Positions 1 through 64,000 of a stretch of DNA of 64,000 bases are shown here, piece by piece. The position numbers and the translations under genes are program-made. Below the pieces are notes generated by a model. It searched no databases. It was not told the DNA's origin and saw nothing but the letters and a program-made list of their open reading frames with translations. The DNA lies in the NCBI RefSeq assembly GCF_029873635.1, contig NC_080425.1:42286390-42350389 (forward strand), read 5' to 3'. Within the stretch, counting starts at the first letter, position 1, and each line of letters begins with the position of its first letter. This DNA is from Malania oleifera. Its lineage: Eukaryota; Streptophyta; Magnoliopsida; Santalales; Ximeniaceae.

Positions 1-641
1 GTAAACCCTCAAAAACTTGTTTAATCAAGTCTATGGACTTGTATTTATAGCAAAAAATGGGCTACTAGTCGTTTTATGACCATTGGGATGATATATTATA
101 TGTTTAAATTGAAAACTAGCCATTTATAGCTATTGGAGATCGAATCCCAAAGCCAATCATCGACTATTTGACCTCATTCGTCAACTATTAACACCCATTC
201 GTTGACTAATTGCTCCCATTCGTCGACTATTAGCATTCTGTTTGAATTCATCGAGAAATTACCTCAAATCATTGACGAATACCCCAAATTAGAAGAAGTC
301 ATCAACATGAAAGTTGTGAGAATTTTTCTTAACTTTTCATAAATACCAAGGTCGTCCTTTTTGAACTTTTCTAGGAAAAGTTATGCCCCAAATACCATAG
401 GGTATTCAAGAAATTTGATAGATGCATAACTAAGGTTTTAAACCTAACCAGGACCAAGTTTGTAAAAGATTATAACACTAATATGATTTAAAACTTGTCC
501 TTATGAAAATATACTTGATTTAATTGAATCTTTAGGTACATAAAAATAGTTTTGACTCAACCGGGACCAAGTATATTAAAGTTCACAATACTAAGACCAC
601 TTAGCACTTGTCCCATGTTAATCAAAGTTGAGTATAAGATA
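1..641 (-). mobile_element. Truncated LTR (minus orientation), cut by window edge
   Basis: Reading on the minus strand there is a TATA box (TATAAATA, plus coordinates 42-49). Upstream of it, at about 135-290, is a run of short CGTCGACTAT/CGACTATT-type motifs. This is the same layout as the U3 regions of the complete LTRs in this window, so I infer an LTR whose R/U5 side lies outside the window. It abuts another LTR at about 642. No coding sequence is visible. The family is not identified. Confidence 0.45.
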
Positions 642-2034
642 TGATAGGAATGGTATATTCCCAAGAGGGGGGGTGAATTGGGTATTTAAAAATTCTAGGT
701 CAATTTACCCCTATTTTAAAATCCACAAGTAGTATTACACAACCTATGAACTTTCTATACAATCTCAAATCCCACAAATATTTAAATCATGCATGTAAAG
801 CAATCAATGCAATAAATGATCAAATATACATGTACATAAATTAAAGTGGTGGAAATTAAATAGAGTATGGAAGAGAAGGCAGACACAACATTTTTATCGA
901 GATTTGGTCAATCCTGCCTACGCCCCTGCCTTGGGCAAACCACCCAAGGATTCCACTACCTTGCTCACTTAACCCAGTGGAGCGACCCCGTTTACAATTC
1001 TCCTTACAGGACGGAGTCTCCCTAGCTCACTTACCGGGTGAAGTCAAACTGTTTCTACTTACAGAGCGGCGTCTCCCTAGCTCACTTACCAGATGAAGCC
1101 AAACTATTTCTCCTTATAGGACGGAGTCTCCCCAGCTCACTTACCGGGTGAAACCAAACCGTTTCTCCTTACATGGCGGTGTCTCCCTAGCTCACTTACC
1201 GAGTGGAGCCAAACTGTTACACCTTACAGGATGGTGCCCTCCTAGCTCCCTTAACTGGACGGAGCCAAACCAGTTCTAGATATGAAAATTTTTGTACGAA
1301 TAAGATGCTTCTGAAATAAGCAAAGATGTATAATATGAAGACCAATGCACTTTTATATGATATGAAATAATGCTTAATAGAATATGGTAATTTTCTCAAT
1401 GAAACTTTTGGAATCTTTGAATAAAATGTATACGATGAATATTTCAAAGATTCAACCCCAAATGATTTCTTCCAAAAAGATATTCAAAAACTTTTTCAAA
1501 GGAAGCTAGGGTTTTTGCTCAAAATTATTTTTGCAATAAAGACTAGTGAGCTTTTGAATTTTGCAGTGGATGTGCACAAAGATTCACAAGTTAGATAAAG
1601 TTTCTCCAAAAAATATTTATTAAGAAAAATATGTGGAAAAACTCAAGCCTTACTCTCTAGAAATGATTTTCAAAGTGAAGGATTAAAATGAGAGTAAATG
1701 CTTTGGATGAAGAAATAAATACCCCAAAATAAATGCTCCTTTCAACAATCCCTAAAAAACAATTGATTTGCAAATAAGAGAGTGAAAGAAAATCAAATGC
1801 TCTCTTTAAAATTTTTTTTTCAAAGGAATGAGTATAAGAGAGTATAAATTATTGCTTGCTTTTAAAAAATAAAGCTTAAAATATTTTGGAGGATTTTCAA
1901 GATAATCAATAAATTAGAAATTAATTATAAGAGGGGTATTTATAGACTTCTTTCAAAATATGACCGTTAGGGACCTATTGGGCATTAATTAATTTGTTTA
2001 TTTCAAAATTAATGACCTTTTTGCACTGAAAAAT
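642..2034 (-). mobile_element. SIRE-like copia LTR, U5/R side (minus orientation), truncated
   Basis: The low end (about 642-700) matches the U5 end of the other SIRE-like LTRs here, with the typical 'cccaagaggggggtgaattgggt' stretch. On the minus strand a TATA box lies at 1937-1944. The sequence stops at 2034, just past the TATA box, where it runs into the R region of a second LTR, so the distal U3 with its palindrome array is missing. The small ORFs here are spurious. Confidence 0.65.
1000..1274. repeat. Five tandem 55-bp units inside an LTR
   Basis: Units begin at 1000, 1055, 1110, 1165 and 1220. Each carries CTCCTTACAGGACGGAGTC-like sequence followed by TCCCTAGCTCACTTACC and a GTGAAGCCAAAC-like end. 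The first four are very similar; the fifth is more diverged. They lie in the R/U5 part of the LTR. Related but shorter arrays occur in the LTR at 21690-21880. Confidence 0.9.
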
Positions 2035-3907
2035 TTGGCATGCCGAGGATTCGACTGCCTACGTCCCCACCTCAAGCTCACAAGCAAGAGGATTCCGCTA
2101 ATGCTCGCTTACCGGGTGGAGCGACACCGAATACAACACCTTTTCCTTACAAGGCAAGGGAAACTCCAGGTCATATTAATAGGGCTGACCCCAACCTTTA
2201 CAAGCAATCCTTATGGACTAGATCAACACCCCCTTAGGAGCAATCCTTATGGGTTAGATCAACACCCCCTCAGGCCACGCCTGAATACAATAGATAAGAA
2301 ATACAATTTTTTTGTACAATATCAATGCTTCTCCAATAAGCAAGTATATACCAATATAATCAATGCACTTCAATATGATAGGATTTATAAGCTCAATGAA
2401 GTTTAATATAACTACTCTAAAGATAATGTCAATATATCTAGTAATATGTGAGAGTGTGTTGTGAATGAATCTTTGAGTCAAGATATGTATGAATGTATCA
2501 ATCACAAGTTGCAAACTCAAAGATCTCAAGAGCACAAGCAAATATCTCAAAAATAATTTTTCAAATAAGTATGAGAGATATTCAGATTTAGCTTGTTAAA
2601 AGTGTTTTTCACAATATCACAGTACATGCCCTTGAATCTTGCAACAAGAATGCAAGACTTATAAGCCCTAGAGAATTTTCCCAAAGAAGACTTATGAATT
2701 AAATCACAAGGGAAAAATCAAGCTTACTCTCAATAAAAGTCAATCTCAATCAAAGAATGTGAGAGTGCAAGCTTATAGTAGCAATATGGATGATCTCAAG
2801 AGATTCTCACCAAAGGAATTTTTGCAAGAGGAATGTGTAAGAGTGGAGTTTTTAAGCTTGTAAGGGAAAAAAGTGAGTGTTTGGAAATTCAGAGGATATT
2901 TGCTAATTGTGTTTGCTAATCTGACGCTAGTCAGAACAAATGAAGGAATATATATAGACACTCCAAAAATTATAACCGTTTGGGACTCAATGGGTATTTT
3001 TGAAAATGTTATATTAGGTTTAATAAAAAATAACCCAGTTTAGCCCCGGTAAAAATCTCGCCAACCCTAAAGGTTCGGTCAACCATATTCAAGGTTTGTT
3101 TGACCATATTACTAAGTTCGGTCGACCGTGGTAATTTTGAACTAGGGTTTTGGTCGACCGTCTCAGGGCGATTTTGAACCCCTTCGTGGGTTCAATTGAC
3201 TGAAGCTAAGGTTTGGTTGACCGCTCATGTGGTTCGGTCGACCGATGCCAAAATGAACTGCATATTTGGTCGGTCGAACAGTTGGGGGTCAGACACGTAT
3301 AAGTTCGGTCGACTTAGGACAATACGTTCATTTTAGAACAGTTGACCGCACGAAGTCAAAATGTTGACTTTCGAATGGTTTGGTCGATCGTGGCATTTAT
3401 ACCGCCACAGGTTCGGTCGACCGTGGCTAAGTCTTTTCAGCCAACAAAGGTTCGGTCAACCCATCTGAGTATAACTAGGTGGGTTCGGTTGACTGAGGCC
3501 CTTTCAAAGATTATTTTAGGTCCTAATTTTTATTAGAATTCACCCCTGTTACTAGTGGTATAACTTTTAAGTTAAAGGGGATTTTTCATGAAGTGTTTAT
3601 GAGAACCTAAAGTCAATCTATGGTCATTGAGCTTATTAACCCTATTTTTCATGCAATGCATTAATTATTACAGATCATATTACAGACCCAAATGAATTAA
3701 ACAACAAATACAAATGAAAATATTTGGTCTTCACTTCCTTTACTTCTCCAAACTCCACCATATAATGTGAGCATTGAGTTCTTTATGACCTTGTTTGAAT
3801 CTTTGTCATTTCGTGCTAAGAATGGTCCTGCACACAAACTTAGGGCACAAGTAAAATACAAAGATATTTGTCATTATCAAAACGGGATATGACCTATAAG
3901 GTCAACA
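2035..3907 (-). mobile_element. SIRE-like copia LTR (minus orientation), U5 end missing
   Basis: The sequence begins abruptly at 2035 in the R-region 'GCCTACGTCCCCACCTCAAG' block shared with 900-960 and 60720-60745. It continues through a TATA box (2948-2956 on the minus strand) and a palindrome array (3072-3510), and ends at 3907 in GGTCAACA, which is the TGTTGACC start of the LTR in sense orientation. About 300-400 bp of the U5 side are absent compared with the complete solo LTR at 60537-62545. No TSD pairs the low end of the preceding LTR fragment with this high end. Confidence 0.7.
3072..3510. promoter_or_regulatory. Palindrome array (GGTTCGGTCGACCG type) in LTR U3
   Basis: About a dozen exact or mutated copies of GGTTCGGTCGACCG are spaced irregularly, for example at about 3117, 3152, 3233 and 3411. 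The GGTCGACC core is a perfect palindrome. In the sense of the LTR the array is upstream of the TATA box at 2948-2956, with about 115 bp between its near edge and the TATA. Confidence 0.75.
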
Positions 3908-5137
3908 TAGAGGCTGATGCCGCCTGAAGACAGAACTACCGAGAGCCTCTACTAAATGCTCGACCAGAGAGACCATTATGGGTGATAGAGTCAAGTTCTT
4001 GAGATTTCCTAAAATTCGAGATCTTTCAAGTCTCAACCATCTACTCGACCAACATAACTCGACTGTGCAACTATGTCGAGAAGAGCTAAATTCAAAATCC
4101 TGCTTTCCCGGGAGCTCCGACCAGGGCGCAATCGAGTAAGAACATGGATGCAACTTGGTCGAAATTGAAGATCTACATCACAAGATACTTGTTGAAGTTG
4201 CCATTTTTGAATTCCAAATCTTGTAAACCTTAATGGGTATATATAGTAGCTTCAACAATGAGCTTAGGGTTCCTTTTTGGCCTCTCTTAGGTTAGTGACA
4301 GACCTAAGACGTCATTGAGAACCATTGTAGATTAGTTAGAGTAGATTTCAATACTTGTTCTAGTTTGTACAAGATGTGTTCAATGGCCCGTGACAACCGG
4401 CGAGGCTCTTGTGTTTTTTGTGTCTATTAAAGGATCATTCAGTTGTACCTCTAGTGGTTAGTGACAGACGATTCGAATACAAAGGATTGATCTTTTTACA
4501 TGCTTTCTCTTTACTGCTTTCATCTTTACATGCTTTCATTTAATCGCTTTGCTTTACTGCTTTCCTTTACAATTTGATTGTGATGAATACCTAGTAGATA
4601 GGATAACACTTCTACAACTTCAATCAGGTACACATATTAGACTACAGTCTCTCACAAATTTTCTCGTGATCATTGTGATAGAGTATACTCTGGCTCTTGA
4701 CCATGCTCCAGACGGTTGGTGCACCCTTGCTACCCTATGCCATCTAATAGCTCCTTGGACTGTTTAGCCGGGTTCCAATTAGTTTAATGCTGTAAAATCA
4801 CTGAAATTAGATTACGCACATGACATCCTAGGTTAGATTTGTGATTGAGCACTGTTTTGTAGGAGTAGAGTTAAGTTAGACTTGCTTTCATTTACATGCT
4901 TTCAAGTAGCTGATAGAACACACCTTGAAAAATACCATCTTTTTACTTTTCTTTTGCACAAGGCTACAATAAATTAATTTGGAAGTGGCTCGATAACTGC
5001 GTTTTATGTTCCTAAGGATCGACACCCAACTTCCTCACTTTTTATTGAACTTGGGATTGTTAGGTACTACAAATATTATTTTTGGTAGTTAAGGACCCAA
5101 ACCTTGGTGAGCCTACCAATAGCCACCAAGGCTAACA
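3908..5137. repeat. Unclassified repeat-like stretch without a gene
   Basis: No convincing coding sequence. It contains a TATA-like TATATATAG (about 4239), repeated TTACATGCTTTC stretches (4497-4535, 4890-4905) and a GATCGACACCC segment near 5018 of the kind seen near LTR ends of some gypsy elements. The right edge, GGCTAACA directly followed by a CT-rich tract, looks like a minus-strand LTR start after a polypurine tract. I infer retrotransposon LTR material of uncertain family. Confidence 0.35.
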
Positions 5138-5155
5138 ATCTCCCCCTTTTTTATG
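5138..5155 (-). mobile_element. Polypurine tract of a minus-strand LTR element
   Basis: On the minus strand the sequence is AAAAAAGGGGGAGAT, directly followed by TGTTAGCC. This is the same arrangement as the polypurine tract plus LTR start at 17305-17319 and, on the minus strand, at 23912-23897. It implies the remnant of a 3' LTR junction. Confidence 0.6.
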
Positions 5156-6312: not shown

Positions 6313-7560
6313 TTGTAGAGACCCAAATTTTTACCAGATCATTTTAATTATGAAATAAGGGTTCTGAATTGAGTTAAGTCAAGATTTTAAAGGTTGGGGT
6401 TGTACATTATTTATGGACTATTCTTAATCTCCTAAGTTAATTGGTTTGTAATTAATTTATTTAGCCATTCATAAGTGTCCTTAACCGGTTATTTCAGGAA
6501 ACTTAAGTGAGATTAGGAATTTTCAAAATCATTTGTCAGAATCGGTTGATTAATTGAACTTTTTAAATCTTGTTGTTTCATACACAAGCAAGGGTCAGAC
6601 GTGCATAATAAATTGAAATATTTTATTAAGTGGGCACGTGCCCAAGTTAGGAGATACAATGAAATACACGGAGTGCTGAAATTTAAATAATATGCAAAGG
6701 AAATACAAAGGAAGTACAGGGAGATGTTGAAATACAGGGAAATAACGTACAATACATACATGAAAAATACAGAGAAATAGTGTGCATACAAAGGAAATAT
6801 AGGGAAATAAAAAAGTCAAATCAAAATCTCTAGTTGAGCTCGCGGGCATATTCTAAAGCATCTTTGGACGTCCTGTCCACCAAATTAGAAAGAAAAATCA
6901 AAAAATTATGTTAAATTAAAATTCAAAATAAACATGCGCACAATAAAGAGATTGCAATTTGTTGAAATATCCCTTCATCTCTTTCTACCCAAATCTCCAT
7001 TAATTGGAGAATGAACTAAATTGCAAGAAAAGGGGGAACAAATTTCTATTGGAACAAATATCTGCTAGAAGAAAAGCAATCAAGCACGAATTGGACCTTG
7101 CCTAGACTCCCTATTTGCAATCAAGCACTAATTGGACCTTGCCTAGACTCCCTATAAATAGGGAGTCTCACACACAGAGAAAAAGGGGGGGGGGGGGGAC
7201 GAGAATTGAAAAATTAAAAGATACAATTGAGAGAAGGAGAGAAGGATAGTATTTGGAAAGCAAGGATGCACAGACCGAGGTAGAAAGAAGCTCTTGAAGC
7301 TTTCAAAATAGTAGAAACCTCGTAGGATTCTCAAAAGTAGGAACCAATTTCTCAAGAGGCACACCCACTGGGGCCAGACTACCAAAACTCAGGAGAATAC
7401 ACACAACATTGCATCTGTCCCATACTATTGACTTTTTGAGTCCTATCTCATTTTTAATAATAACAAATACAAGGTATTTAATGTTTGTCGAGTTTGTGTG
7501 CATGATCAAATTAGCAAAATCATATGGTGGCCCATGATGACTCAAAGGAAAAATGAAGAC
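6313..7560 (+). mobile_element. Gypsy-type LTR 5' part, truncated
   Basis: It starts TGTAGAGACCCAAATTTTTACC, like the TGTAAGAACCC and TATAAAGACCC starts of the two solo LTRs at 9723 and 29485. A TATA box (CTATAAATAG) lies at about 7150. The GGGCGT(T/G)ACA end typical of that group is not found before the next LTR begins near 7590, so the 3' part is missing. It contains a 14-G run near 7185 and a 41-bp tandem duplication (7076-7116, 7117-7157) reaching to the TATA box. Confidence 0.45.
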
Positions 7561-7589
7561 CCAAAGTGTTTTAGTTGTTGTAATTTATA

Positions 7590-9473
7590 TTCAATTCATT
7601 GGGTCTGTAATAATTTTTTCAAGGTCTGTAATAATTGATGCATATCATGCATGTAGGGACTATAAGCTCAAGACCATAGATAGACCTTAGGGATCACCCT
7701 TCGATTGACCGATGCCAGGTTTTTTAGGCTAAGTTAAAAGGCCTAGACCTTAGGAAGGACTCTAGGACATTGCACATACACTTAGAATAAGTCTGCACCT
7801 TCAAATATGCAGTTAGGGGAACATATATTACTTAGGTCCTAAAGCAGTAAGGTTTCGGGCGACCAAACCTTGGCGGTGAAAATGCCTCGGTCAACTAAAC
7901 CTAGGAAGTCAAAGTGTTCACTTGACTTTGGGAGACCAAACTTGTGCGATGAAAACGTCTCGGTCAACCGAACAGGTGAAAAGTCAAAATGTTGACTATG
8001 GCTCGGGCGACCGAACATTTTTGAACTAAACGTCCATGGTCAACCGAACACGAGACCTAACTTTTTCCAACAACTCAGGCGCCTAAATTTCATGTTCAAA
8101 ATACCCTCGGGCGACCAAACTGCGGATAGTTTGGAAAATTGCCTTGTTCAACCACCCGAACCATTTTTTAGGCACCCTAAGTTCAAATTTTCCTTTTTCT
8201 CATGTGTTTATTTGGGCGACCGAACCTAGGGCTTTGTCAAACGAAACTCTTGGGCTAGTTTAATTTTTACCGCGGTTAATTGGGGTTAAATTGGGTTAAT
8301 TTTCTTTAACTCATTTAAAACAAATTTAATAATTACCCTTGTGTCCCAACGGTATTAATTTTTATGCTTGTCTATATATAGGTCTTCATTTGCAAAATTA
8401 AGACAAGATTAGGGATTTAATTAGCTAAAATTTTCTCTGAATTTTTGAGAGCCCCTCTTCTTACTCAAAGCCAAAATGCTCCTTCTTTGATCATTCTTTT
8501 ACAAAATTCATTTGAGTGAGAATATTTTAAATCATCCTACATTACTTTCTAAAGTTATAACTCTCATTGTGTTAATTGTGTGGTTGATTTATGATTGAGA
8601 GGTTAGCCAAAGTTCCCCCCTCCCCCCCCCCCTCTGGTTTAATTAATAAATCCTTGAGTGGGGAAAACTTTTAGCTAGTGAGTCTTTGCATCATTATTGC
8701 AAGACTCATTAAGCTTGTGTTTTGATTGTGCAAAAATTATTTTGATAAGATTATACTACAAATATCTCTTGTAGTAGATTTTTGAGAAAAATCATTTATG
8801 AGATATTTTTTATTACACTTTTTGGAGATCTTTGAAACCATACTTGTGATTGATATACTTTGGTTTATTGTTTCGAATATTTTTTGAAAATACACGTTTG
8901 CACTTGATTGCCTATTGACATTAGATTGAGTGTGATTACACTTTATTGGCATTGAGCTTATAGTTCATATCTATGTGGTGTGCATTGATTGATATCAGTA
9001 CATATCTACTTATTGGAGAAGCATTTAAATTGTACACAAATTTGTATTTCATTGTTGTATTCCAGGCGTGGACTGAGGGGGTGTTGATCTAAATCGTAAG
9101 GATTGGTAGGGCCTTCTTCGCCTCATAAGGAGAGTGTGTAAAGGTTGAGGCCAGCCCTGGTAATTTGACCTAATTGTAACCGGTGCCACTCCACTTGTTA
9201 AGTGAGCATTAGTGGAATTGTTGGGCTTGTGAGCTGAGGCGGGAACATAGGTAGTATTGGCCGAAGCCCGATAACATTTCTTATGCTTGCTTTTAATTTT
9301 CGCAATTTAAATTTTTGCACTTGAATGTTTTTGATTTATTATTGTGAATGATTGGGTTTATAATTGCATAGACAAACCCTATGTTGCACAATACTGCTGA
9401 TTTAGTTGAACCTAGGAGAAAAAATTTAAATACCCAATTCACCATCCCTCTTAGGAATACACCAAAGTCAACA
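7590..9473 (+). mobile_element. SIRE-like copia LTR (plus), 5' end missing
   Basis: The sequence is collinear with the complete LTR at 20108-22252 from the 'accatagatagaccttaggg' block onward. It has a palindrome array (about 7850-8250), a TATA box (8373-8380), the R-region block with GGACTGAGGGGG, and a U5 end 'cacc...ctcttaggaatacacc' finishing in GTCAACA at 9473. The first ~230 bp of U3 are absent. No TSD is found. Confidence 0.65.
7850..8250. promoter_or_regulatory. Palindrome array (TCGGGCGACCGAAC type) in LTR U3
   Basis: Repeated variants of CTCGGGCGACCGAAC and CTCGGTCAACCGAAC occur (for example near 7853, 7950, 8001, 8038 and 8214), separated by 30-60 bp spacers. The array lies about 125-150 bp upstream of the TATA box at 8373-8380. 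Confidence 0.7.
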
Positions 9474-9722: not shown

Positions 9723-11527
9723 TGTAAGAACCCAAACCGCGATAAGGGGTTTAAATAAATAAAAGAGGGGCAAAATTGAGAATATGGTAGATTTCGTCGA
9801 CGAAGTTGAATTTCATCGATGAAGCCTTTGTTCTTCTCGTCGACGAAATGCAGAGACTCGGAAAAACTGGCAATCTCATATTCGTCGACGAGGCCACCAA
9901 TTCATCGACGAAGTCAATGAAAGATTCGTCGACGAGAACACTATTTCGTCGACGAAATTGGGCCAGGTCAAAGGGGTATAAAAGGAAATTTCCATTACTT
10001 CTTCACTAAGTAAGAAAATCTCTCTCTCTCTCCCTCTAAAACTCTCCCTACTCTCTCTCTCTCTCTAGATTTCTTCGTCGATCATTGATGGAATCAAAAA
10101 TTTGAAGTTACCACGAGGATCGTGGAAGGATTCTCTACAACTTCTACAGATCGGAATCTCGTTTCGGAGATTTTCGGGTTTCGGCGTAAAATTAGACTAA
10201 GGCTCAGTTTTTAATTCTGATCCGATAGTTTTGTAGGTATCAGTCTTGTGAGTATATTTTGTATTGTGATTTGTAGGTTTTGGAACTCGATTCGCTGTTT
10301 AGGGGCCTTGGAGTTCAGGATTTTCTTTTCGGGGAAAGGTAAGGGGAACTATGTTTATATTGGTTACTTTTGAAATCGAATTCTGTGGAACTGTGGTCCA
10401 CGATCCTGTATGTGTTTTGGCTACTCATTTGGGGGGATCTAACTAGGAAAACTATGGGTTTTTCATTATTACAGTTTTGGGAAAAAGGGGGCGACGGGCT
10501 GAATTCTGGGTTTTGTTGAAAACCAAGTATATGTGTGATTTATACTGTGATATTGGGATGGTCATGCCTTGACTTGTTTAAACTATATTTGTTTAAAAAG
10601 TCATGATTTAGATTACCAAATGGGTGTGGTTTGTTTGGTTATATGAGCATGCATGTGTGTGTGATATGTTGAAATGCTAGTAGGAACTGGGTTCCGAAAT
10701 TGTTCCAGGTACTGAGAGTGTCCGGCTCTATATCCGAGGGCATGTGTTTATCGCCTGCCACGTAGGCAAAAGTGTCCGGCTCTATATCTGAGGGCGTGAG
10801 CCTATGCCGACAGATCAGGCCGAAGGGTGTGGACCCACTAGTTTTGCGCCAGTACGATGCCATGGGAGTCGGGGACTAGCCATGTGCCGATGGCGCTGTG
10901 CTTCCCGGGTTGGCCGGGCCAACATCGGAATGTCGCGGACCGGTTTCGGGCCGAAGAGTGTGACGACATTATGGATTACTGATCATGTGTATGTGTGTGA
11001 GTGCGTGTATGCACTGTGGAAATTAGTACTGGAATGCATTTAACTGCGTGTATGTTGTATCATGATAACACTCAAATGCCACATACCGATATAACCTGTG
11101 TTCTTCCTTACTGAGAGTCTCACCCCTGCTGTACGTATATTTTTACAAGTCCTTCAAGTAACTAGAACTAGCGTCCTGGTGTAGGGAGCGTAGTGGCCGG
11201 TGTACTGTGTTTAGCGCTTGGGTAAGTGCTAGGACTGTATTTTGATGGGTAGCCATTTTGAGGTGTATTTGGGCACCCGTTTGTACGTTTTGATAGAGCC
11301 ATGTTTTGCTCTTGTATAGACTCTGGTATGGTACCACATAAGTGTATATAGATAACCTTTTTCCACTACGTATATGTTTGTGATTGGATGTGTTTAGGGT
11401 GCCTGGGAACCCCACGGGGTCGGACCCTCATCCATTGTACTGTATATTTGGATGCCTTATCAGATACAGGGACAAGTTAGATTATATTCTCACCCTTGGG
11501 TCCCATTTCAGGGTTCAGGGCGTGACA
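9723..11527 (+). mobile_element. Gypsy-type solo LTR, 1805 bp, TSD CAACC
   Basis: It starts TGTAAGAACCC and ends GGGCGTGACA. The 5-bp target duplication CAACC is perfect (9718-9722 and 11528-11532). A TATA box (TATAAAA) is at 9977-9983, followed by CT-rich leader sequence. No internal region, primer-binding site or pol is present, so this is a solo LTR left by LTR-LTR recombination. The ends resemble plant chromovirus (Tekay/Del-like) LTRs; that family assignment is inference. Small ORFs inside are spurious. Confidence 0.9.
9787..9957. promoter_or_regulatory. Seven-copy TTCGTCGACGAA palindrome array
   Basis: The palindrome TTCGTCGACGAA or one-mismatch variants (for example ATTTCATCGATGAAG) occurs about seven times in 170 bp, ending about 20 bp before the TATA box at 9977. 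It is the gypsy-LTR counterpart of the arrays in the copia LTRs, with a different flank around the same GTCGAC core. Confidence 0.85.
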
Positions 11528-12059: not shown

Positions 12060-14131
12060 TGTTGGTCGTACAAGGCTTACAATCTTGTTTAGATGATAAC
12101 AAATAATAGGAACTTAACATATTTGGTTAAGTGATGATATTTCAAGACTTAACTATGAGAAAGCAAGGTCAAGTGTTCACAAGGATCCATTGAAAGCTTA
12201 TACTTCAAAGAAGGATGATCAAATGAAGCTTAAGACATGGATTCCAAGAGGATCTATTAAAGCTTGAAGAATATGAGAGGATGGATATTAAAGAGAAAGC
12301 TCAAAGTATATTAAAGGTTGAAGACAAGATGGAGCCAAAGCAAGCATGAAGATTTAAGTGTTTAGAATTTCAAAGTCTTATGAAGTCTTTATGTAAGTAC
12401 TTCATGTTTAAATATCTTATGAAATACTTTGAAGATCTTTAGGATGCATTTAAGACTTAGAGACCAGTTTTTGAAAACTTTGGAAAATAATTTTGAAAAG
12501 TAAAAATTGAGTTTTTCAAATAACAAGGGTTTAAAATCTTAAAAAAATGAAAGTTTTTGAAAAGATGAACTGCTTAGCCGACTGACCAAATTGAAGTGTG
12601 TTCAGTCAGCTGACTGACAAAGGGTCTGTCCAGCTGACTGACAGTATTGAACTGAGTTCAGTCAGCCGACTGACAATTATTTTCTAAATTTCTCGGATAG
12701 ACAGAATGGTCTCAACCAACTGTCCAACCGATCGACCCTGTACAAAAATGACTCAGTCGAGTGACCCAGCCGACTGACCCTGCGGGAATTTTAAATTTCG
12801 AACTTCAACGGAAAAATTCAAAAAATTAGTTTTTCCAATCTAAACGTTATAAAAACTTGGGGGACACTCTAAGCAACTTGGGAAACAAGGAAACTCATTT
12901 TAAAAACTCTATAAATACTTCTTTAACCCAAGGAATCAAATTACCAAGCAAAAATCAGCAATCAAGCATCCTACTTTCAATCTTCTCTAAAGCTCACTCT
13001 TGCTCACATTCTTGCTAGGAGAATTCTACTGAATTGCTGTTGATCAAAAGCCACGGTTCTAACTTGCTACTAAGTTTTTTCAAATCCTAAGAAAGAACCT
13101 TCGGTGATATCTTATCTTGAGCTTCAATTCTATTTCATGTTGATATTTAAATTCTGAAGTACATAATGCTGAATTTGTACTAATCTGCTATGTTTGAGAG
13201 TGTTCTTGTATGCAATGTTTATTTTGTATTTCTTGTAGTTCTTGGATGATTCCATTTTGTTGGATCGTTGACCAAGCATGGCGTATTGCTGGGAGAGGTG
13301 ATTACTTTAGCCTATTAAAGGAGTGCCCAAGCGTGGGGTATCGCTTGGAGAGGCGTTGCTCTAGCCTACTGAAGGAGTGTGTAACGATTTTGTTCCACCC
13401 AGAAAGGAATTGGTATACTGGAATCCTTTGGTGGTATTGACCAAAGGCGAGGATGTAGGCTGGGGATAAGCCGAACCTCGTAAAAAACATGGTCTCTATT
13501 TTTCCCTTACTCTCTTTAAATTCCAACAAACATATAAACTGCGTGGATGATTTAATTTCTTAATCGTATATACTACATAATTTGGAAATTAAATAAACTG
13601 AAGTTTAATTTGGTTTTGGGATTGCGGAAACCGAAAGGGAGTATGTTGATTGGTTAACACCTAAAGACAAATTAACTAAGAGTTTATTTAAATTCTGAGT
13701 TGTTTGGGATTTGAGTTGTGGTTTGCATTGAATCAAATTACATTCATTAGGTTTGCATTGAATCAAATTACATTCACTACAGGGCTTGAAACAATCATAC
13801 ACATAGGGTTATTAACAAAAGCTGAAATTACCAAAGTGCTGAAAATTATATTTGCTAGAGTATTTTATTTTTGATTACTTAGATGTTGGTTGGTTATGTG
13901 GATGTTTAAGTTTTTGATCACTTGTGCTTGGTGAATCAATTGGTTTGGTTGATTGGTTTTGAGAATTGCTTGTTCATTTAAGTTTTTGTGGTTGTGGATT
14001 GAATAAAGAATTAAGCTTGTGCTGTGTTGTTCATAAATAATCAAGAGCTTAAGAATTCATTAAAAAAATTGAAATAAATTTTAATAACCCAATTTACCCC
14101 CCCCCCTCCTGGGAGTACACCTTGGTTTTCA
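12060..14131 (+). repeat. 5' LTR (2072 bp) of the SIRE-like element
   Basis: U3 carries a palindrome array (12562-12782) and a TATA box (TATAAATA, 12910-12917). The R/U5 part has two tandem ~54-bp units (13272-13325, 13326-13380) with the words AAGCGTGG(G)GTATCGCTTGGAGAGG and AGCCTACTGAAGGAGTG. A ~31-bp duplication of GAATCAAATTACATTCA lies near 13730-13778. It retains a 68-bp segment (about 13466-13533) that the 3' LTR has lost. Confidence 0.93.
12562..12782. promoter_or_regulatory. Palindrome array (GTCAGCCGACTGAC type) in 5' LTR U3
   Basis: About eight copies of CAGCCGACTGAC, AGTCAGCTGACTGAC and similar, including GTCAGCTGAC, a perfect palindrome. The array ends about 130 bp before the TATA box at 12910. 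Confidence 0.8.
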
Positions 14132-14132
14132 A

Positions 14133-14150
14133 TTGGTGTCAGAGCGGGGT
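14133..14150 (+). other. Primer-binding site of the SIRE-like element
   Basis: TTGGTGTCAGAGCGGGG begins two bases after the LTR end. It resembles the initiator-tRNA-Met complementary site TGGTATCAGAGC used by plant copia elements, with a transition in the fourth position of the core. Confidence 0.75.
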
Positions 14151-14188
14151 TGTACCAAATCCTAACTAGTAGCTACATAAAGATCTAG

Positions 14189-16125
14189 ATGACACACATA
14201 GGAGTAGCTCCCTTTGGAGAGGGTCAATCCTCAACTAGGCCTCCCGTCTTTTATGATTTAAATTATAAATTTTGGAAACAAATGATGAGAATTTACCTTC
14301 AAACTATGGATTGGAAAGCTTGGAAGGTTGTCACACATGGTGACTTAATTCCTACTAAAATCGTAGATGGCAAAGAAATTCCCAAAGAAGAAAAAGAGAT
14401 GACCAGCAATGACCATAAGATGCTTCAAGTAAATTCAAGTGCTATGAATGCTTTATATTGTTTTCTTGACATAAATGAATTTAATAGGGTCATGGCTTGC
14501 AAATTAGCTAAGGAAATATGGGATAAATTAGAAGTCACTTATGAAGTTACTATTGATGTTAGAGATAGTAGAATAGACATGCTCACAAGCGAGTATGAAG
14601 CCTTCAAGATGAACTCGGATGAATCAATTACGAACATGTATACAAGTTTCACCCATATAATAAACTCCCTTAATGCCTTAGGAAAAACATACTCAACTTA
14701 TGAAATGATTTGAAAAATTCTTAAAGGACTTTCACTGATTTGGGAACCTAAGGTCACTGCAATAACCGAAGGAAGAAATTTGAAAAACACCTCTTTAGAC
14801 GAACTCATAGGATCCCTTCTTACATATGAAATGTTTATAAATGAAAGAAGTGGTAAAACTAAAGCACAAGAATCAATTGCTTTTAAAGCTTCAAACAAAA
14901 ATTCTTGTGATGAAGATGAAGATGAAATGAATGAAGATGAGCTAGCATTCATATCCAAGAAACTTGCAAGAATGCTAAGAAGGAAAAATAAATTCAAAAT
15001 AAAAATCCAAAACTCAAGTTCAGATGAGGAAGAAGTTAAGAAGAATGAAACAAAGAAATAACTACCTACATACTATAATTGCAAGAAAGTAGGACACCTA
15101 AAACCAGATTGTCCGGAACTTAAGAAAGATTCCAAAAAGAAAAAAAAAAGAAAAAAAGGCAATGAAAGCCACTACTTGGGACAATATGAGTACAAGTAGT
15201 TCTGATAATGAATCAAGTGACCAAGAGGTTGCCTACTATATGACTTGGGACGATGATGAAGGACAAAGTTCCTCATCCAAATCTTTTAATGAATCATATA
15301 GTGAATCTAGCAATGATGAATCCAATGATGAGAGTATACCATCTTATGAAAAGTTACAAAATGAATTATTCAAGGTTCATAAGATTCTAGTCAAAGTAAC
15401 TAAACAATATACTTCATTAAAAAATAAGAATGAATCTGTAATGAAGGAGTTAGAATCCCTTAAACTTGTTGAAAGAGAAGAAGATTTAAAAATCAAGAAA
15501 ATAAAAAATAAGAATGAAGTTGTGATAAAAAACTTAGAATCTAAAAATCTTGCTGAAAAAGAAAAAGATTTGAAAATCAAGATATTAGAAAATAAGAATG
15601 AAAAGTTGATGAAGGAAGTAGATGACTTAAGATCCCAATCCTCTATGGAAAATGAGAAAGATCAATATATTTCTAAATTAGAGAATAAAATCACAAAAAA
15701 AAATGTCTCAAAATCAAGAAAAGGGTAAAAATAAACAAAATTTAAAAATCTATGATCTTAAGGAAAGAATTGAGGATCAAGCCAAAATCATCTACAACTT
15801 CACTAAAGGAAAAGAAAATTTTGGCAAAATGATTGGCTCACAAAGAATGTTTTTAAATAAAGAAGGCATAGGATTCAATGGAGTAGAAAATACAAAGAAA
15901 AAGAACCTCTATATGTGGTACTTTGCAAAAGCCTCTAAAGATTATGCTAGCACTTCCTCTAATGTCTATACTCACACCACATGCTTCATATGTAAGAAGA
16001 AGGGACATATAAAGTTTGAATGTCCATTAAAAAGAAAGGGTGTGAAAACTAAACAAGTTTGGAGAGTAAAAGAAACTTTTCTTGTTAAACCGTCCGGACC
16101 CAAGACAATATGGGTACCAAGATGA
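14189..16125 (+). pseudogene. Broken copia gag (DUF4219/UBN2 and zinc knuckles)
   Basis: The N-terminal part (14189-14713) begins MTHIGVAPFGEGQS and carries the FGEGQS-x-RPPVF, W-K-x-M and 'A-K-E-I-W-D-K-L' signatures of copia gag (UBN2 family). It is followed by a lysine/glutamate-rich coiled coil (about 15330-15720). Zinc knuckle 1 near 15083 lacks its first cysteine (YYNC...H...C); zinc knuckle 2 near 15983 is intact (CFICKKKGHIKFEC). It ends near the typical GPKTIWVP. Breaks: in-frame TGA at 14711-14713 where the family usually has Arg, in-frame TAA at 15059-15061, and two frameshifts located at A-runs (about 15135-15160 and 15695-15703). In an autonomous element pol would follow; here a stop and non-coding DNA follow. 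Confidence 0.9.
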
Positions 16126-17304
16126 GATAAGAAAAAATCTCAAAGATGAGTTTTTGACAAATGAAAACAGTATTATTGGCCTCAATCAATGAATGAATCA
16201 TACAAGGCTTAACTTAGAAAGTATTAAACATGAAATTTAGGAATTTATATGAAGTCAAAAGTAAGAAAATCTGAGCTTATTGCATGAGTTTTTAATTAAG
16301 AAAAGATATTTGAGAATAAGAAACACTTGAGCAAAATTGTAGTACAATGCAAATGATAATGATATGCCCTCTGCTTATGTGTTATATGCTGCTTACATGC
16401 TGATATCTTGATAGTGCCAAAGACATGAAAATGATTTGACTTATATTGATGATTTATGGCTCACTATATATTGAAAATTTGAGCATAACAGCATAATTAT
16501 ATCCATGAGCATGTTATGATATTGATAATATTGACATGATATTGGTATTACTCTTGATATTAGTATCCATGAGCACATACATGATATAAATCAACATTTG
16601 AAGCATGAGATGATAAACTTAAAAGTATAATTGGTATCAAATATGAATGTATTAATTTCAGGGGGAGTGTTATGACTTATTGCTTGTATTATGATTTTCC
16701 CTAATTTTCAATTGGTATCATAAAATAAACAAATTGGTATCATGAATTAATGTCAAAGAGGGAAAGAATGTTGAAAGCAAAGATGAACTATAAATGACAA
16801 ATATGAAATATGCATGATGAATTCAAGCTAATATGAATGTTGTGCAACATATGCTTCATTGTGAACTTAAAGATGTTACAACACATATGCAATATGAATT
16901 ACAAATATGAAATATGCATGACTATTTGACTATTGAAGCACTCTACATTGCAATATATTGGGAAGCGTGTGTTCATGTGATATACTTGTTCTTATTTTCA
17001 TATGCTCAAAATGTGATTTTATTTGAATTTAATCATTTTTGATATCTAACTCTTTTTGATTGATGTCAAAAGGGGGAGAAGTTTTAAGCAAAAATTGAGT
17101 TTTATATTGTTAAGTTGGGGGAGAAGTATTTGAACTTGAATGTTGATATTAATCTTGAATGATGTAATTCTGATATATGAGCACAATACTGAAATTAATT
17201 TTGAAATTGACCTTGATATTACAAATATTGCTAAGATGATGCTTATTGTAAGGGGGAGTCTTTTTAACGCTCACTCAAATTTTTGCTCCTTGTTTGTCAT
17301 CATA
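16126..17304 (+). mobile_element. Non-coding internal 3' region in place of pol
   Basis: About 1.2 kb of AT-rich DNA with recurring AAATATGAAATATGCATGA (near 16802 and 16901) and repeated 'ggggga(g)' patches near 16661, 17074 and 17117 that resemble duplicated polypurine tracts. No ORF matches protease, integrase or reverse transcriptase, so pol has been replaced or deleted. Confidence 0.7.
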
Positions 17305-17318
17305 AAAAAGGGGGAGAT

Positions 17319-19286: not shown

Positions 19287-19291
19287 CAAAT

Positions 19292-22252: not shown

Positions 22253-22860
22253 ATCTACCTCACAACCACCAAAGCACAACACGTGGCGCTCCATCCTCCA
22301 TTCGTTTAGCACCTCACACGGCCTTGCCTCAGCCATCCGATTCGTTTTTCCTAGTGACGGGCACGATTGTGCCACGTTGGCAATTTGAGTCAACTTTGAC
22401 TACTCCGCCCAATGGCCCGTGGCCTAGTGACATCATTGTGATGTCGCTCACTGCAGGCTTAATGAAAGGATTATATTTATATAATTGTCGGCCACGTGTC
22501 CTCACCCGAAGATGACACGTGGCCTAAACCAATTGACCCAGTCTGGTTCTCTATGAATCGGTTGACTAATTGAATTGGTTTTAGACTAGCATTTTGTATT
22601 TTTATTATTTATTTTTTATTAGTTTTATTTATCTAAAAATCTAAAAAAGAAAATAGGAAAAATAAAAAAAAATCAATAAAAATTAGGAAAAAATTTGAAA
22701 AATATTTTCAAGGTCAAAATTTTGTTTTTCACACTTCTCATTAAGAAAAAATAGAAAATAATTCCCAAACTCTCCCAAAATAAAAATTGGAATATTATTT
22801 AATATCTAAAAAAATTTTATAAATTTTTGAAATGATTCTGGGATTTATTTTCATAAAATA
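22253..22860. other. Unclassified stretch with paired G-boxes
   Basis: No homology to the neighbouring LTRs and no credible gene. It has CACGTGG at about 22280 and an inverted pair of G-box palindromes at 22490-22524. The last 250 bp are AT-rich with AAAAATxAAAAA runs. It joins the truncated LTR at about 22861. Confidence 0.4.
22490..22524. promoter_or_regulatory. Inverted repeat of two CACGTG G-boxes
   Basis: Perfect 11-bp arms GGCCACGTGTC and GACACGTGGCC are separated by 13 nt. Each arm contains the CACGTG G-box core bound by plant bZIP and bHLH factors. Whether it drives any transcript here is unknown. Confidence 0.6.
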
Positions 22861-59925: not shown

Positions 59926-60536
59926 TGGTATCATATGTTTGTGTGTTTCAAGAGAAATGAGAAGTCATTTTTTTTTAATATAATGGTGTTTGAGACCCTT
60001 TTTGAGCTCAACTAACTTATCACGATAACAAATCTATCTCTGTAACCCTCCCCACTTAAACATCAAGATTTTATTTGAAATAGAAAGTCAATACTAAGGC
60101 TCCAATGTTGACTTCTAATCAAGGAAGTCTTTTTTAAATTTATGAATTGAGCAGCTCACAAGGTGATATTAAATGGAGATGGTTGTCCATTATTAAATAT
60201 AATTGTTCATAGCTCATTTTGGTCTTTTAGTTTACATAATACTTATGCCATTTTGTCTTAATATACATACCAAAAAAATTATGATCTCAAATCTTAGTTA
60301 TGAATTTTCATTATTTTTTTATTATAGATTTAGCACAAATTTTTTTTTTTTTTGTAAGATATTATAGTCCAAGTGCATGAAATGAATGAATAGTGATACT
60401 AATCTCATTTTGGTGGTTTAAAAGAGTAGTTTCAAGATTTATCCAAGTTATCAAGTAGTGAACTCGACATGAAAAATAGTGATTCTCTTATTTATACACT
60501 CTTTATGGCATTTAATAAGGGAAAAAAAATACAAGA
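59926..60536. other. Intergenic DNA, no gene seen
   Basis: AT-rich, with a T-run at about 60341-60355. It may belong, together with 62551-62840, to an older LTR split by the solo LTR between them; support is weak. Confidence 0.35.
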
Positions 60537-62545
60537 TGTTAGCTTTAGTGTATTCCCAAAAGGGGGGTGAATTGGGTATTTAAAAATTTGTCCCTAGGTC
60601 AATCGGTTTAACAGCTGTATAAACACAATCATTCATAATAGTAAAATATAAACATTCATATGCCGAAATTTAAAATACATAAATTAAAAGCACGCACAAA
60701 AAATGTTATCGAGTTTCAACTAACTGTGCCTATGTCCCCGCCTCTAACTCACAAGCCCAAGGATTCTACTAAAACTCACTTAACGAGTGGAGCGGCACCA
60801 ATTACAACAAAGTCAATTAGCACAGGGCTGACCTCAACCTTTACAAATTCTCCTTGAGAAGCGGAGAAGGCCATAACAATCCTTACGAACTGGATTACCG
60901 CCCCCTAAGGCCACGCCTTGAAATACAACAATATTCTTCACAAAATAACCAGTACAGTGATTATACTTCTCAAGTAAAGAAGATATGTACCCAATACGCG
61001 CAATCACATACACATCAATAATATAAGTAATGTAAACTCAATGATGTGAATATATGTGCAAATAATACTCAACAATATATGATCACAATAATATTCAAGA
61101 GTATTCTAAACAAACTGTATCTTTGAAACAGGTTTATATCAAATCTCAATGTTTAATCAGAATTTCAAAGATGCTAGTCAAATATTCAAACTAACTCAAA
61201 AGATTTCCTTTAATGAAATGCGCACACGAGTAGTCTGAAAAATATTTTAACTTGTAGAAAATATTTTGCACAACAAAATCAAAGTTATGGGACACTTGCA
61301 ATAACAATGCAAATATCCTAAGCTTGCTAATTTATCCCAACACAAGATTTATAATATTGAAATCTTTGAGATAAACCTAAGTCAAACTCCCCAAAAAATA
61401 ATATCACAATCAAACAAGCAAATGAGAGTTTTTAGCAAAATCTAGCAATCACAAGTACTCTAAATATGCTCTCACAATCTCAAAATGTATAAAGGAAATG
61501 GAAATTTGAGAGTATTTAGACAAAAAGAGTATTTGAAAAGAGAGGATTTTTGGCTAATGAAATTGCAAATCCTTGCAAATGAGCCAATATTTATAAGCAA
61601 GGGTAAAATTATAACCGTTTGGGACTTTTTGGGAATTCTTAGAAAAGTTTCAAATTGTTTAAACACAATTAACTCAACTTAACCTGTATTTACCTTGGTT
61701 AAAATTTTTTTTAACCCGACAAGGTTCGGGTGGCTGAACCGTGGTTTGGTTGCCCGAATAGACACGATAATAAAAGACTTTAAAATTAGTTCGGCAGCCT
61801 GAATTACAGTTCGGTGGCCCGAATCAAAGTCATAAACATTTCTTCATAAATTCGGGTGCCAAGTCATAGGTTCGATAGCCCGAACTCATGTGTTCGGTCG
61901 CCCGGGGCTTAATTTAAACTAAATCGCTCGGTAACCCGGGTTGGTGAAATGTCCTTTTCAGGTGGTTCGGGTGCCCGTGGACGGTATGCACAAAATTTTT
62001 TGGTTGCCTAAAAGCCTAAGTCAACTGTTGACTTCTCAACAATTTAGGCGCTCGAGGAGTTTTGAATTCTTAGGGTTCGGTCGCCCGAGCTCTCTCAAAA
62101 TTCCCTATGATATTCAATTTTAATTCATTTTTAACACTCTTGAATTCTGTATGATATATGTGCATAAGTCGTGGGACCTAAAGTCTCACTAAGGTCTTTT
62201 CAAGGGCCATTTTGAGATAGTTCCAAAAATCCGGCGTCGGTCGACCTGCTCTAAGGTCATTCAGTCCCTATGGTCAGTCTATGACATTTTTTAGCTTATA
62301 AACCTACATGCATGACATGCAGAGATTATTACAGATCATATTCCTAGTTACTATTACAGACCCATATTACATTAATCAATTTTACAAAATGAAATAGAAT
62401 CTTCATGGTCTTCAGGCTTCACTTCAGGTTTTTGCATGCCATTATATGAGTATTTGCCAATAAAAACCTGCATGCAAACTTGGCAACCATTAAGTACCTG
62501 AGTATTTGTCATAATCAAAATAGGGTATGACCTATGGGGTCAACA
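60537..62545 (-). mobile_element. SIRE-like solo LTR, 2009 bp, TSD CAAGA
   Basis: On the minus strand it runs from TGTTGACCCCATAGG (62545) to ...CACTAAAGCTAACA (60537), with perfect target duplication CAAGA (60532-60536, 62546-62550). The TATA box is TATAAATA at 61595-61588 and the palindrome array at 61723-62095. The R-region 'GCCTATGTCCCCGCC' and 'ACTCACAAGCCCAAGGATTC' blocks match those at 2050 and 28340. No internal region, so it is a solo LTR. Confidence 0.92.
61723..62095. promoter_or_regulatory. Palindrome array (TTCGGTCGCCCGAA type) in solo LTR U3
   Basis: Variants GGTTCGGGTGGCTGAACC, GGTTGCCCGAA, TTCGGTGGCCCGAA, TTCGATAGCCCGAAC, TTCGGTCGCCCGGG and TTCGGTCGCCCGAG are spaced 25-60 bp apart. 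The near edge is about 128 bp upstream (minus sense) of the TATA box. Confidence 0.75.
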
Positions 62546-62550
62546 CAAGA

Positions 62551-63290
62551 GTTACACGTGTGCCTCCAATAGATATTATAGTCCCACAACCAAGAGTTAG
62601 GTGGTTAGAACCCCTAGAAAACCACAAGGGGGCCTAAAAAAGAGGACATAACACAAAAAGAGGGCGAGAGAGAGAGGGTAGGCTAGTTGTTTTAATTACT
62701 CTTATGGACTTAAGCATTAGAGGGTTTCCGCAACCCTACTTTGGTCACCCCCATTGTTTTGTTTTTCTAGGGACACAAGTTTCACAAAGCTCGGTAGATA
62801 TTTGAGGACACTACCAATCCGAAAATTGATTCAACAATTTCGCATCATTTGTGGGAATGTAAAGTCATGCTACAATCACAGTTTTGGTAAATTTTCAAAA
62901 ACAAAAAAAAAAAGTGGGTAAAAAAGGATAGTCAATAGCATGCATAAATGTTCTCTCATATCAATGACCATACCCAAGGGTCCACAAATCCCAATTTCCT
63001 TTGAAACATTCGCCTCTAACAACATTTCCAAACCATACAAAATCAAGTGCAGCTACTCGTATAAAATGCTAGGTGCTACTAGAACACAACCACCTAAGTT
63101 AGGGAATGAGTGGCTCATAATCCATTTATTCATGACCACACTAGATGGAAAAATCCCCTGAAATGCAAGGGAGTTTATTTACCTATGGGTTGGAATCAGA
63201 GAATGTAACTGAAGATCTATAGGAGAAAAGAGGCAACTTGCGACAAAGTTGAAGAAAAAAGAGTGAGGAGACCCTATTTACGAACAAGAT
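62551..63290. repeat. Possible older gypsy LTR end, otherwise unclassified
   Basis: Around 62838, GATTCAACAATTTCGCATCATTTGTGGGAA resembles a decayed LTR end followed by the 'TGGCGCCGTCTGTGGG' primer-binding region of plant gypsy elements. The rest of the stretch has no recognisable coding domain. Confidence 0.25.
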
Positions 63291-64000
63291 AATAGTTGAA
63301 CCTATTACGTTTCATTAACTTGGTTTTGATGATAACAAATTATTTTGAACTAATGACTTTGTGCTTGAGTGGCGTTTCTATACGAATTAAGCCATTGAAG
63401 TTGGAGAAAAGCCAAAGAATTGAGATAAAATTTTGAAGATTTTAATACATTTATTTGTAGTGTTCCTCTCTCAATTATAATGTATTTTAATCTATGAAAT
63501 CATGTGAAAACATAAGGCATAATACTATTGGACCAAAACTTGCAAATGGGATCAAATAGAAGATCAAACTCTAGCCTTGTGCTGGGGGTGGTTGACTAGC
63601 CCAAGTAAAGGCCAAAGGTAGACAACCAACCTCTAAAGGTTGTTGACCGCTCTAGCAAGTTTTGCCTACAACGGTCTTCTTCTTGTCTCTAATGGCTAGT
63701 AAGTAGTTGACCAAGTCTTGTAAGCAATTAACCGATTTGAAAGCCAAAAAGACTCCACTGGGTAGAAAAATGGCTAATTTTCATCCAAACTCTATATATA
63801 TGTCATCCTAAACCTTAAAAACGTTAGAGAAGCTATCCATACTAAATATCTAAGTGCCCTAACCTTAAAAATCTCTTTTGCTCTCTTTGTGCCTTAATTT
63901 GCTCATCTTTGAGAAGAAACTCTTAAGCTTATATTTGATGATTCTTTCAGAATTTGTCTTGAGCCTTAAGTTGTAAATATTTCCTTGTGAGGATATTTGA
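63291..64000 (+). mobile_element. LTR start (plus orientation), cut by window edge
   Basis: 'Tggttttgatgataacaaa' at about 63320 matches the start region of the LTRs at 12060 and 17319. A TTGACCG/TTGACTA motif cluster (about 63585-63745) lies upstream of a TATA box (TATATATATA, 63793-63802), followed by a CTAAG/CTCTTTG-rich R region. The remainder lies beyond the window. Confidence 0.55.

Follow-up and report, generated by a model that had tools for sequence, protein, structure and literature searches.

Palindrome arrays in the long terminal repeats of a Malania oleifera locus appear to be mainly Sirevirus repeated-motif boxes and candidate upstream enhancers

Why should retrotransposons of different families carry arrays of short palindromes at the same place upstream of the TATA box of their long terminal repeats (LTRs)? 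The question is raised by a stretch of 64,000 nt from Malania oleifera (contig NC_080425.1, positions 42,286,390 to 42,350,389; hereafter the window), in which a sequence-only reading had listed 11 such arrays in copia- and gypsy-type LTRs, all of which we tested. Judged by their sequence, ten of the 11 arrays appear to be the repeated-motif boxes of Sirevirus LTRs or derivatives of such boxes, a mostly known feature; for the two fragments at the window ends this assignment is only probable. The eleventh array, at 9787–9957, appears to be a separate, similar array in a Del-type gypsy LTR, whose role we suggest by analogy. (Sireviruses are a large plant copia lineage that accounts for 21% of the maize genome, according to the part of PMC10760457 available to us.) The LTRs and their arrays, in window coordinates, are as follows.

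135–290, minus strand: array in an LTR fragment truncated where the window begins, probably Sirevirus; 7 units like TAGTCGATGAATGG, the first at 295–308, spaced 21–30 bp; TATA near 49.
2037–3907, minus strand: Sirevirus-type LTR LB; TGTTGAC start at 3907, junction near 2037 read by eye.
3072–3495, minus strand: array of LB, CGGTCGACCG; 14 units, the last axis 124 bp upstream of TATA.
7480–9473, plus strand: Sirevirus-type LTR L3; 5' end inexact, weak integrase-signal-like CACCATCCCTCTT near the 3' end.
7850–8250, plus strand: array of L3, orthologous; many oriented, imperfectly palindromic units resembling TCGGGCGACCGA.
9723–11527, plus strand: solo LTR G1 with Del-type gypsy ends TGTAAGAACCC...GGGCGTGACA and a 5-bp target duplication, CAACC.
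9787–9960, plus strand: array of G1; seven TTCGTCGACGAA-like units in tandem dimers of about 44 bp; TATA at 9977, 26 bp downstream of the last axis.
12060–14130, plus strand: Sirevirus 5' LTR L4; primer-binding-like site at 14137, gag_2 open reading frame at 14189–14710.
12562–12782, plus strand: array of L4 with a TCAGCYGACTGA core, CpG-poor.
17319–19290, plus strand: 3' LTR L5 of the same element as L4; terminal AGGGGGAG-AT-TG junction at 17309–17320.
17831–18038, plus strand: array of L5, the pair of 12562–12782.
20108–22252, plus strand: Sirevirus-type LTR L6, with TGTTGG...CCAACA ends.
20503–20900, plus strand: array of L6; 13 units, best positional period 10.55 bp.
22838–23897, minus strand: Sirevirus 3' LTR L7, aligned part only.
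23180–23490, minus strand: array of L7; 10 units, with two gaps (25 and 32 bp) when aligned with L8.
32211–33311, minus strand: L8, in part, the presumed 5' LTR of the element to which L7 belongs, interrupted by a gypsy-type solo LTR.
32558–32930, minus strand: array of L8; 12 units.
60535–62545, minus strand: Sirevirus-type LTR L9; its lower boundary is approximate, with an integrase signal near 60567.
61723–62095, minus strand: array of L9, orthologous; 11 units like TCGGGCNACCGA, the centre relaxed and the CGG-CCG arms mostly kept.
63585–63745, plus strand: weak array in an LTR cut by the window end, probably Sirevirus; GTTGACC-like units, TATA near 63793.
29485–31944, plus strand: gypsy-type solo LTR G2, which has no array; ATGGC on both sides, sequence read by eye.

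As had been proposed, the palindromes exceed what is found in composition-matched shuffles. Taking as a near-palindrome any twelve-base stretch with at most 1 mismatched pair and 5 or more G/C, we counted 42 in the 11 arrays together versus 9.3 ± 3.0 (maximum 20) in 1000 dinucleotide shuffles, and perfect GC-rich palindromes numbered 23 versus 6.9 ± 2.7; the density of near-palindromes was 13.4 per kb within arrays and 1.3 per kb outside. Taken singly, 7 of the 11 arrays reached p<0.05 on one score or the other, six by near-palindromes (9787, 12562, 17834, 20507, 23180 and 32558) and the one at 3072 solely by perfect palindromes (p=0.014); neither score was above shuffles for 135, 7850, 61723 and 63585. 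A one-strand search for a repeated 14-mer, which is blind to palindromy and was compared with five base shuffles per array, recovered 5–14 units per array. The repeated 14-mer outscored all five shuffles in every array (marginally at 63585, 17.4 versus at most 13.2), and its self-complementarity (0.43–0.67) was above that of the shuffles' motifs in all 11, by a narrow margin at 135 (0.51 versus 0.46) and at 63585 (0.43 versus 0.40). The description of the arrays as conspicuous CG-rich islands holds for eight of them, in which the CpG observed/expected ratio is 1.05–2.25 versus 0.45 in the remaining window, and not for those at 12562 (0.59), 17834 (0.69) and 63585 (0.37). The lack of an array in the solo LTR at 29485–31944 was confirmed.

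The six arrays of LB, L3, L6, L7, L8 and L9 each have 10–14 CGG-CCG palindromes upstream of TATA, decayed ones included, and a CpG observed/expected ratio of 1.05–1.23. Their GC content (0.43–0.50) is below 50%, the level that CpG islands usually exceed. This is the layout that Bousios et al. 2010 (PMC2829016) describe, in the portions available to us, for the repeated-motif boxes of Sirevirus LTRs: an element has a minimum of 8 and a maximum of 32 palindromic boxes, which lie mostly in the upper half of the LTR and bear, with a single exception, a CGG-CCG signature; the cores differ by family, and CpG islands precede a conserved TATA box by a short distance. The arrays here are likewise high-copy, CpG-rich CGG-CCG palindromes, and the Vitis consensus among the 13 motifs in Table 3 of that paper, CGGTCGACCG, is identical to the core found here. 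The signature is absent from L4 and L5, from 135–290 and from 63585–63745, the consensus units of which are TCAGCCGACTGACA, TAGTCGATGAATGG and AGGTAGTTGACCAA, respectively.

Two elements in the window, one at 12060–19290 and a second running from 33311 down to 22838 on the minus strand, have Sirevirus hallmarks. The first has an exact terminal polypurine tract (PPT), AGGGGGAG, followed by AT/TG at L5 (17309–17320), with extra copies at 16660, 17071 and 17251; the terminal copy at L7 is one G short, and extra copies lie at 23967, 24244, 25648 and 26876 on the minus strand. (The PPT applies to the L5 and L7 elements, since LB, L3, L6, L9 and the fragments have no attached internal region.) The Sirevirus primer-binding site (PBS) pattern, CA/ATTGG plus TATCAGAGC, occurs exactly as ATTGGTATCAGAGC at 28072 on the minus strand, but after a changed LTR end, and CAATTGGTGTCAGAGC at 14137 has one mismatch in the PBS. 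PolyC-rich integrase signals were found at 14097 (L4), at 19255 (L5), at 60567 on the minus strand (L9) and at 673 on the minus strand (in the LTR piece 655–2036), and weaker ones at 9440 (L3) and 22224 (L6); no signal in LB, L7 or L8 matched the patterns used. A domain scan found Retrotran_gag_2 in the open reading frame at 14189–14710 (E 8.9e-20) and a zinc knuckle in 15682–16122, together with a gag match below the cutoff in the frame 27700–28032. We assign LB, L3, L6 and L9 to Sirevirus because they can be aligned with the LTRs of L7 and L8 (L3, L6 and L9 also have integrase-type signals), and the arrays at 12562 and 17834 because they lie in the LTR pair of one element with PPTs, an integrase signal and a PBS that has one mismatch. 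Since they share a block of promoter sequence, described below, with the other LTRs, the fragments at 135 and 63585 are probably Sirevirus.

Scans of other collections gave little that resembled these elements. In IMG/VR the PPT-junction pattern had one match, a contig of 52% GC without any unit motif, the CGG-unit pair pattern found two contigs with two units each, and the maize-type and gypsy-type patterns had no match; GTDB yielded nine stretches titled as bacterial, each with 3–5 units, most of them at even spacing, and none with the PPT octamer. In a text search with the motif strings, PMC2829016 was the sole paper recognised as bearing on this subject among the matches listed. We regard the arrays as chiefly an already described Sirevirus feature, to which the spacing of the units, a promoter box and the one gypsy array are possible additions.

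(Two further junctions were seen in this part of the window. Near 2037 the R-U5 part of one LTR, at about 655–2036, abuts LB as if recombined or inserted, and at 5130–5150 on the minus strand there is another AGGGGGAG-AT-TG Sirevirus-type PPT/LTR junction, with no array by eye between it and 3907.)

The sequence-only reading had taken the arrays to be independently placed in unrelated LTR families. We aligned the U3 regions of six LTRs (LB from 3907, L7 from 23897, L8 from 33311 and L9 from 62545, all on the minus strand, and L3 from 7480 and L6 from 20108 on the plus strand). Pooled counts of conservation, orthologs and intervals exclude the L7–L8 pair; one L3 unit, at 7941, was left out of the axis alignment, the conservation and covariation counts, the per-array phasing test, the phasing test with the first unit list, and the interval counts. 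The symmetry axes of the units coincide within 5 alignment columns in all six, except at the proximal end, where there are two layouts (columns 875/916 versus 867–871/891). Thus, in six of the 11 arrays, individual units can be aligned with one another, and these arrays are, on the evidence of this alignment, descendants of one ancestral array inherited by related LTR families; for these six the alternative that the earlier reading had itself named, alignable relics of one sequence, is what was found. An independent origin of the six CGG-type arrays is ruled out by the coincidence of the axes. Because the axes share columns, GGTCGACC and TCGGKCGCCCGAA, previously listed as different cores, are variants at the same sites.

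The units themselves have changed in a characteristic manner. Orthologous units have a similarity of 0.634 (135 pairs), non-orthologous units 0.630 (1900 pairs), and units within one LTR 0.675; that orthologous units are no more alike though their positions are conserved is as expected if a common consensus is maintained, and the sites look as though they had been refreshed towards, or held at, that consensus while the positions persisted. The commonest departures in 72 units are C-to-T and G-to-A at three CpGs, along with T/A and T/G variation at two other positions, and in paired LTRs CpG transitions amount to 0.22–0.30 per site versus 0.06–0.10 for other changes. Divergence between L7 and L8 is 11.5% in the array versus 6.7% elsewhere (p=0.01), and between L4 and L5 10.9% versus 7.6%, which is not significant (p=0.11). 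Gap openings per 100 aligned bases number 2.3 in arrays, 5.0 in the distal flank and 3.9 in the proximal flank. The co-variation between palindrome arms that had been suggested as a check was not significant, with 277 of 432 pairs complementary versus 266 expected (p=0.056 pooled, p=0.28 within LTRs), and we rejected it as evidence for structure; CpG decay dominates. (Relative to L8, L7 lacks one unit and its spacer, 32 bp in all, at 23352–23392 versus 32731–32803, possibly through exchange between neighbouring units.)

The distance from the array to the TATA box is similar among most of the Sirevirus-type LTRs and not fixed across families as had been claimed. The axis of the last unit lies 112–136 bp from TATA in the six aligned LTRs and, by arithmetic, 112, 138 and 151 bp in three further LTRs, which gives nine Sirevirus arrays at 112–151 bp; the tenth, at 63585, is 63 bp away and that of the gypsy LTR G1 26 bp. 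These distances, like the lack of CGG-CCG in the units of L4 and L5, set the arrays here apart from the boxes just upstream of TATA in the available text of PMC2829016.

Between the arrays and TATA, in the promoter block of the twelve LTRs that we examined, lies a second conserved feature. The motif AAYGG starts 24 bp before TATA in LB, L6, L7, L8, L9 and the fragment at 63585, all of which read AAYGGYYA, and 25 bp before it in L3 (AACGGTAT), so that 7 of the 10 Sirevirus-type LTRs have it 24–25 bp upstream (within 2850–3110 in LB, for example); it is 35 bp before TATA in the fragment at 135 and is not at that place in L4, L5, G1 or G2. Given an AAYGG frequency of 1.5 per kb per strand, a chance match at 24 or 25 bp has a probability of 0.003 per LTR, although the LTRs are related. 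The box resembles the mitosis-specific activator (MSA) box of MYB3R factors. The available text of Bousios et al. 2010 (PMC2829016) has no AACGG, MYB or MSA, and no paper on MSA boxes in LTRs was among the matches listed in a literature search that saw its sources in part.

Unit spacing, which had been described as irregular at 25–60 bp, has peaks close to whole helical turns: start-to-start spacings from the one-strand motif search cluster near 21, 32 and 42 bp. Among 94 spacings the mean cosine at 10.5 bp was 0.52, a value unreached in 20000 jittered sets, with the best periods at 10.25–11.25 bp, and when cumulative positions were scanned from 9 to 13 bp the best period was 10.45–10.6 bp in each of the six aligned arrays. 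After correction for the scan, p was below 0.05 with the first unit list in three of the six (L6 0.0002, LB 0.015, L8 0.016) and was 0.077 in L9, 0.095 in L3 and 0.30 in L7. Of 115 orthologous intervals, 78 had changed by 1 bp or less, versus 109 of 231 control intervals, the pairs not being independent. Helical spacing is not mentioned in the available sections of Bousios et al. 2010 (PMC2829016), and the matches listed for helical phasing in LTRs, seen in part, included no paper on it. (Of note, in the CGG array at 20619–20665, and in the orthologous gaps, an extra palindrome-like AAGTCAACATGTTGACTT splits a 42-bp gap in half, with about 21 bp, as read in the alignment, to the unit on either side.)

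We consider it probable, with odds of about two in three, that the ten Sirevirus-type arrays are an upstream enhancer of dimer sites with phased spacing, helped by AAYGG and controlled by methylation. The starting points of this proposal, namely the identity and orthology of the arrays, their CpG richness and decay by CpG transitions, the smaller number of indels within them and the distances from box to TATA, are plain in the DNA; factor binding, cooperative action and methylation control are what we infer. A host factor acting as a dimer would bind each near-palindrome (CGG-nnnn-CCG or a derivative). With units about 2, 3 or 4 helical turns apart, the sites would lie on one face of the DNA, such that the bound dimers could act jointly on a TATA box 110–150 bp away, with assistance from the MYB-like AAYGG box 24–25 bp upstream of TATA. 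Methylation of the CpGs in the boxes by the host would silence the LTR, and deamination would then erode the boxes.

A number of results weigh against this enhancer proposal. The phasing tests were devised after the spacings had been seen and use the same data, and since the arrays are homologous and some spacers apparently duplicated, few of the spacings are independent. With a second unit rule in its stricter form, six of six arrays passed at a fixed 10.5 bp (p 0.0003–0.037) and only L6 and L3 after scan correction; in its looser form, four of six passed at 10.5 bp and only L6 after correction, and under this rule LB peaks at 12.2 or 10.85 bp. Three hand-picked spacing classes gave p=0.02 by themselves (p=0.0009 with the 21-bp spacing at 135 and two spacings of a short LTR at 48247, described below). 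The G1 array is not phased at 10.5 bp (p=0.24), and phasing in L4 and L5 is weak, with p=0.03–0.06 on spacings and 0.10 and 0.24 in the per-array test. (The 77-bp interval of L9 and two L4 intervals were excluded from the per-array phasing test.) Exactly unchanged intervals are no more frequent in arrays than in controls (0.29 versus 0.27), and one of the two gaps between the L7 and L8 arrays, at 25 bp, is not a whole number of turns. Finally, conservation of unit columns (0.61) shows no overall excess over the flanks (0.60 distal, 0.65 proximal), which we ascribe to fast CpG decay.

Some of these same observations could be read as signs that the arrays have no function of their own, having arisen as side effects of tandem duplication and conversion while U3 evolved fast. 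Some spacers resemble one another in pairs (z as high as about 5), G1 has the form of a 44-bp tandem repeat, L7 is short of a unit and spacer, and exact conservation of intervals does not rise above controls. We nevertheless think a purely passive origin unlikely: in LTRs with 53% identity between their spacers, unit positions stay within 1 bp more often than control intervals do, gaps open in the arrays at about half the rate of the distal flank, and the type of motif is shared by distant plants, to judge from the parts available of PMC2829016.

Alternatively, the palindromes might act in RNA, in that read-through transcripts of U3 would fold into hairpins from which small RNAs are produced and silencing follows, a proposal made for maize Sireviruses. 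We regard this idea, which is compatible with an enhancer, as doubtful, although it has a real chance of being right. The palindrome regions of maize Sireviruses are reported to be small-RNA hotspots in the parts available of PMC10760457 and PMC5311732, and they resemble the arrays here as palindrome-rich cis regions of the LTR with high sequence variability; the arrays here differ in that 5 of 11 fold weakly. Folding z-scores were indeed -3.3 to -6.0 in 6 of the 11 arrays; they were only -0.35 to -1.9 in the other five and reached -3.0 to -3.75 in 4 of 11 array-free control stretches. Moreover, the arms are without significant covariation, and hairpins do not require near-constant distances between units. 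The near-constant spacing, the CpG-rich symmetrical sites and the lack of arm covariation are a better fit for dimer-binding DNA sites under methylation than for RNA hairpins. Of the modules that had been suggested for the arrays, dimer sites or an enhancer sensitive to CpG methylation thus appear still to be the best reading, while structured DNA is weakened by the covariation result and by folding z-scores above -2 in those five arrays. The arrays may have a secondary small-RNA role.

The gypsy LTR G1 bears on a further claim, that copia and gypsy LTRs independently gained one shared module bound by the same factor. The U3 att of G1, TGTAAGAACC, fits the Del pattern TGTAACACCC of Cruz et al. 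2014 (PMC4029996, available in part) and differs from the maize/sorghum consensus at some positions; its U5 att, GGGCGTGACA, is of type A with GGG at -8 to -10, and CAACC lies on both sides. The array, at 44% GC, has 6 near-palindromes versus 1.2 in shuffles, and its units form dimers of about 44 bp with one dimer member missing. In favour of convergence, this array is strong, its units have the GTCGAC centre of the CGG-type Sirevirus units, and the fragment at 135 has GTCGACGAA in common with it. We nonetheless judge convergence distinctly unlikely. Only one gypsy LTR has an array, G2 having none and matching G1 only over short stretches (best E 0.013), and the tandem-dimer layout, outer bases and TATA distance (26 bp) of G1 differ; a shared CpG-centred hexamer is weak evidence. 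Moreover, of the ten remaining arrays six go back to a single array, and those at 12562 and 17834 belong to one Sirevirus element, so that the proposed copia–gypsy convergence mostly fails.

As to precedents for the G1 array, the available text of Cruz et al. 2014 (PMC4029996) describes 5' CpG islands in two clusters of Del LTRs and a predominant lack of them in the cluster to which all eudicot elements belong, and it contains no word beginning 'palindrom'. G1 is like the described Del LTRs in having a CpG-rich block in its 5' part and a fitting att pattern; it has instead a short palindromic array. Maize Ty3 elements generally have no obvious peak of hairpin-like structure, according to the part of PMC10760457 at hand, and palindromic arrays in gypsy LTRs were the subject of no paper among the matches listed, which were seen in part. 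A palindromic Del array may therefore be unreported, G1 being a single copy here whose lineage is taken from its LTR ends.

The window as a whole has the look of plant nuclear DNA, being rich in LTR elements, with a GC content of 34% and a CpG observed/expected ratio of 0.52. One short element was missing from the earlier list of arrays:

48247–49448, strand not assigned: short element with direct LTRs of about 280 bp; CAGCATGCTG at 48332, 48395 and 49254, plus degenerate copies, upstream of a TATA-like site.

Its LTRs (48247–48524 and 49169–49448) are 93% identical, and internal tandem repeats stand in place of evident genes. In the first LTR, palindromes at 48332, 48373 (degenerate) and 48395 are spaced by 41 and 22 bp; in the second, the palindrome of the CAGCATGCTG type at 49254 is followed at a spacing of 37. 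A domain scan of the window's frames detected parts of an EMP70 gene within 41.3–44.3 kb and, at 33.2–34.7 kb, fragments of the hAT type; there are 19 stop-to-stop frames of at least 110 aa, and the 17 of these that were scanned gave no pol domain match at E 0.001. Scans of the window with Rfam and for tRNA genes came back empty. A long, diverged tandem repeat region at 38133–39364 lies outside the LTRs studied.

Since 2010, when a regulatory role was proposed (PMC2829016, in the portions available), the candidate roles for the Sirevirus palindrome boxes have been those of an enhancer, a CpG island or a silencing hairpin. In its fullest form, which we regard as unlikely, our proposal would be of a helically phased Sirevirus enhancer of about 400 bp, held while its spacers diverge and coupled to a cell-cycle-type MYB (MSA-like) box fixed 24–25 bp from TATA, with the same factor class perhaps recruited independently by a Del LTR. 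If that is true, phasing would give the palindromes a DNA–protein function, and whole-turn spacing, should it hold in other families, would favour DNA–protein binding over RNA hairpins. The orthology of the six arrays, for its part, indicates that different cores at the same place can be one decaying ancestral array.

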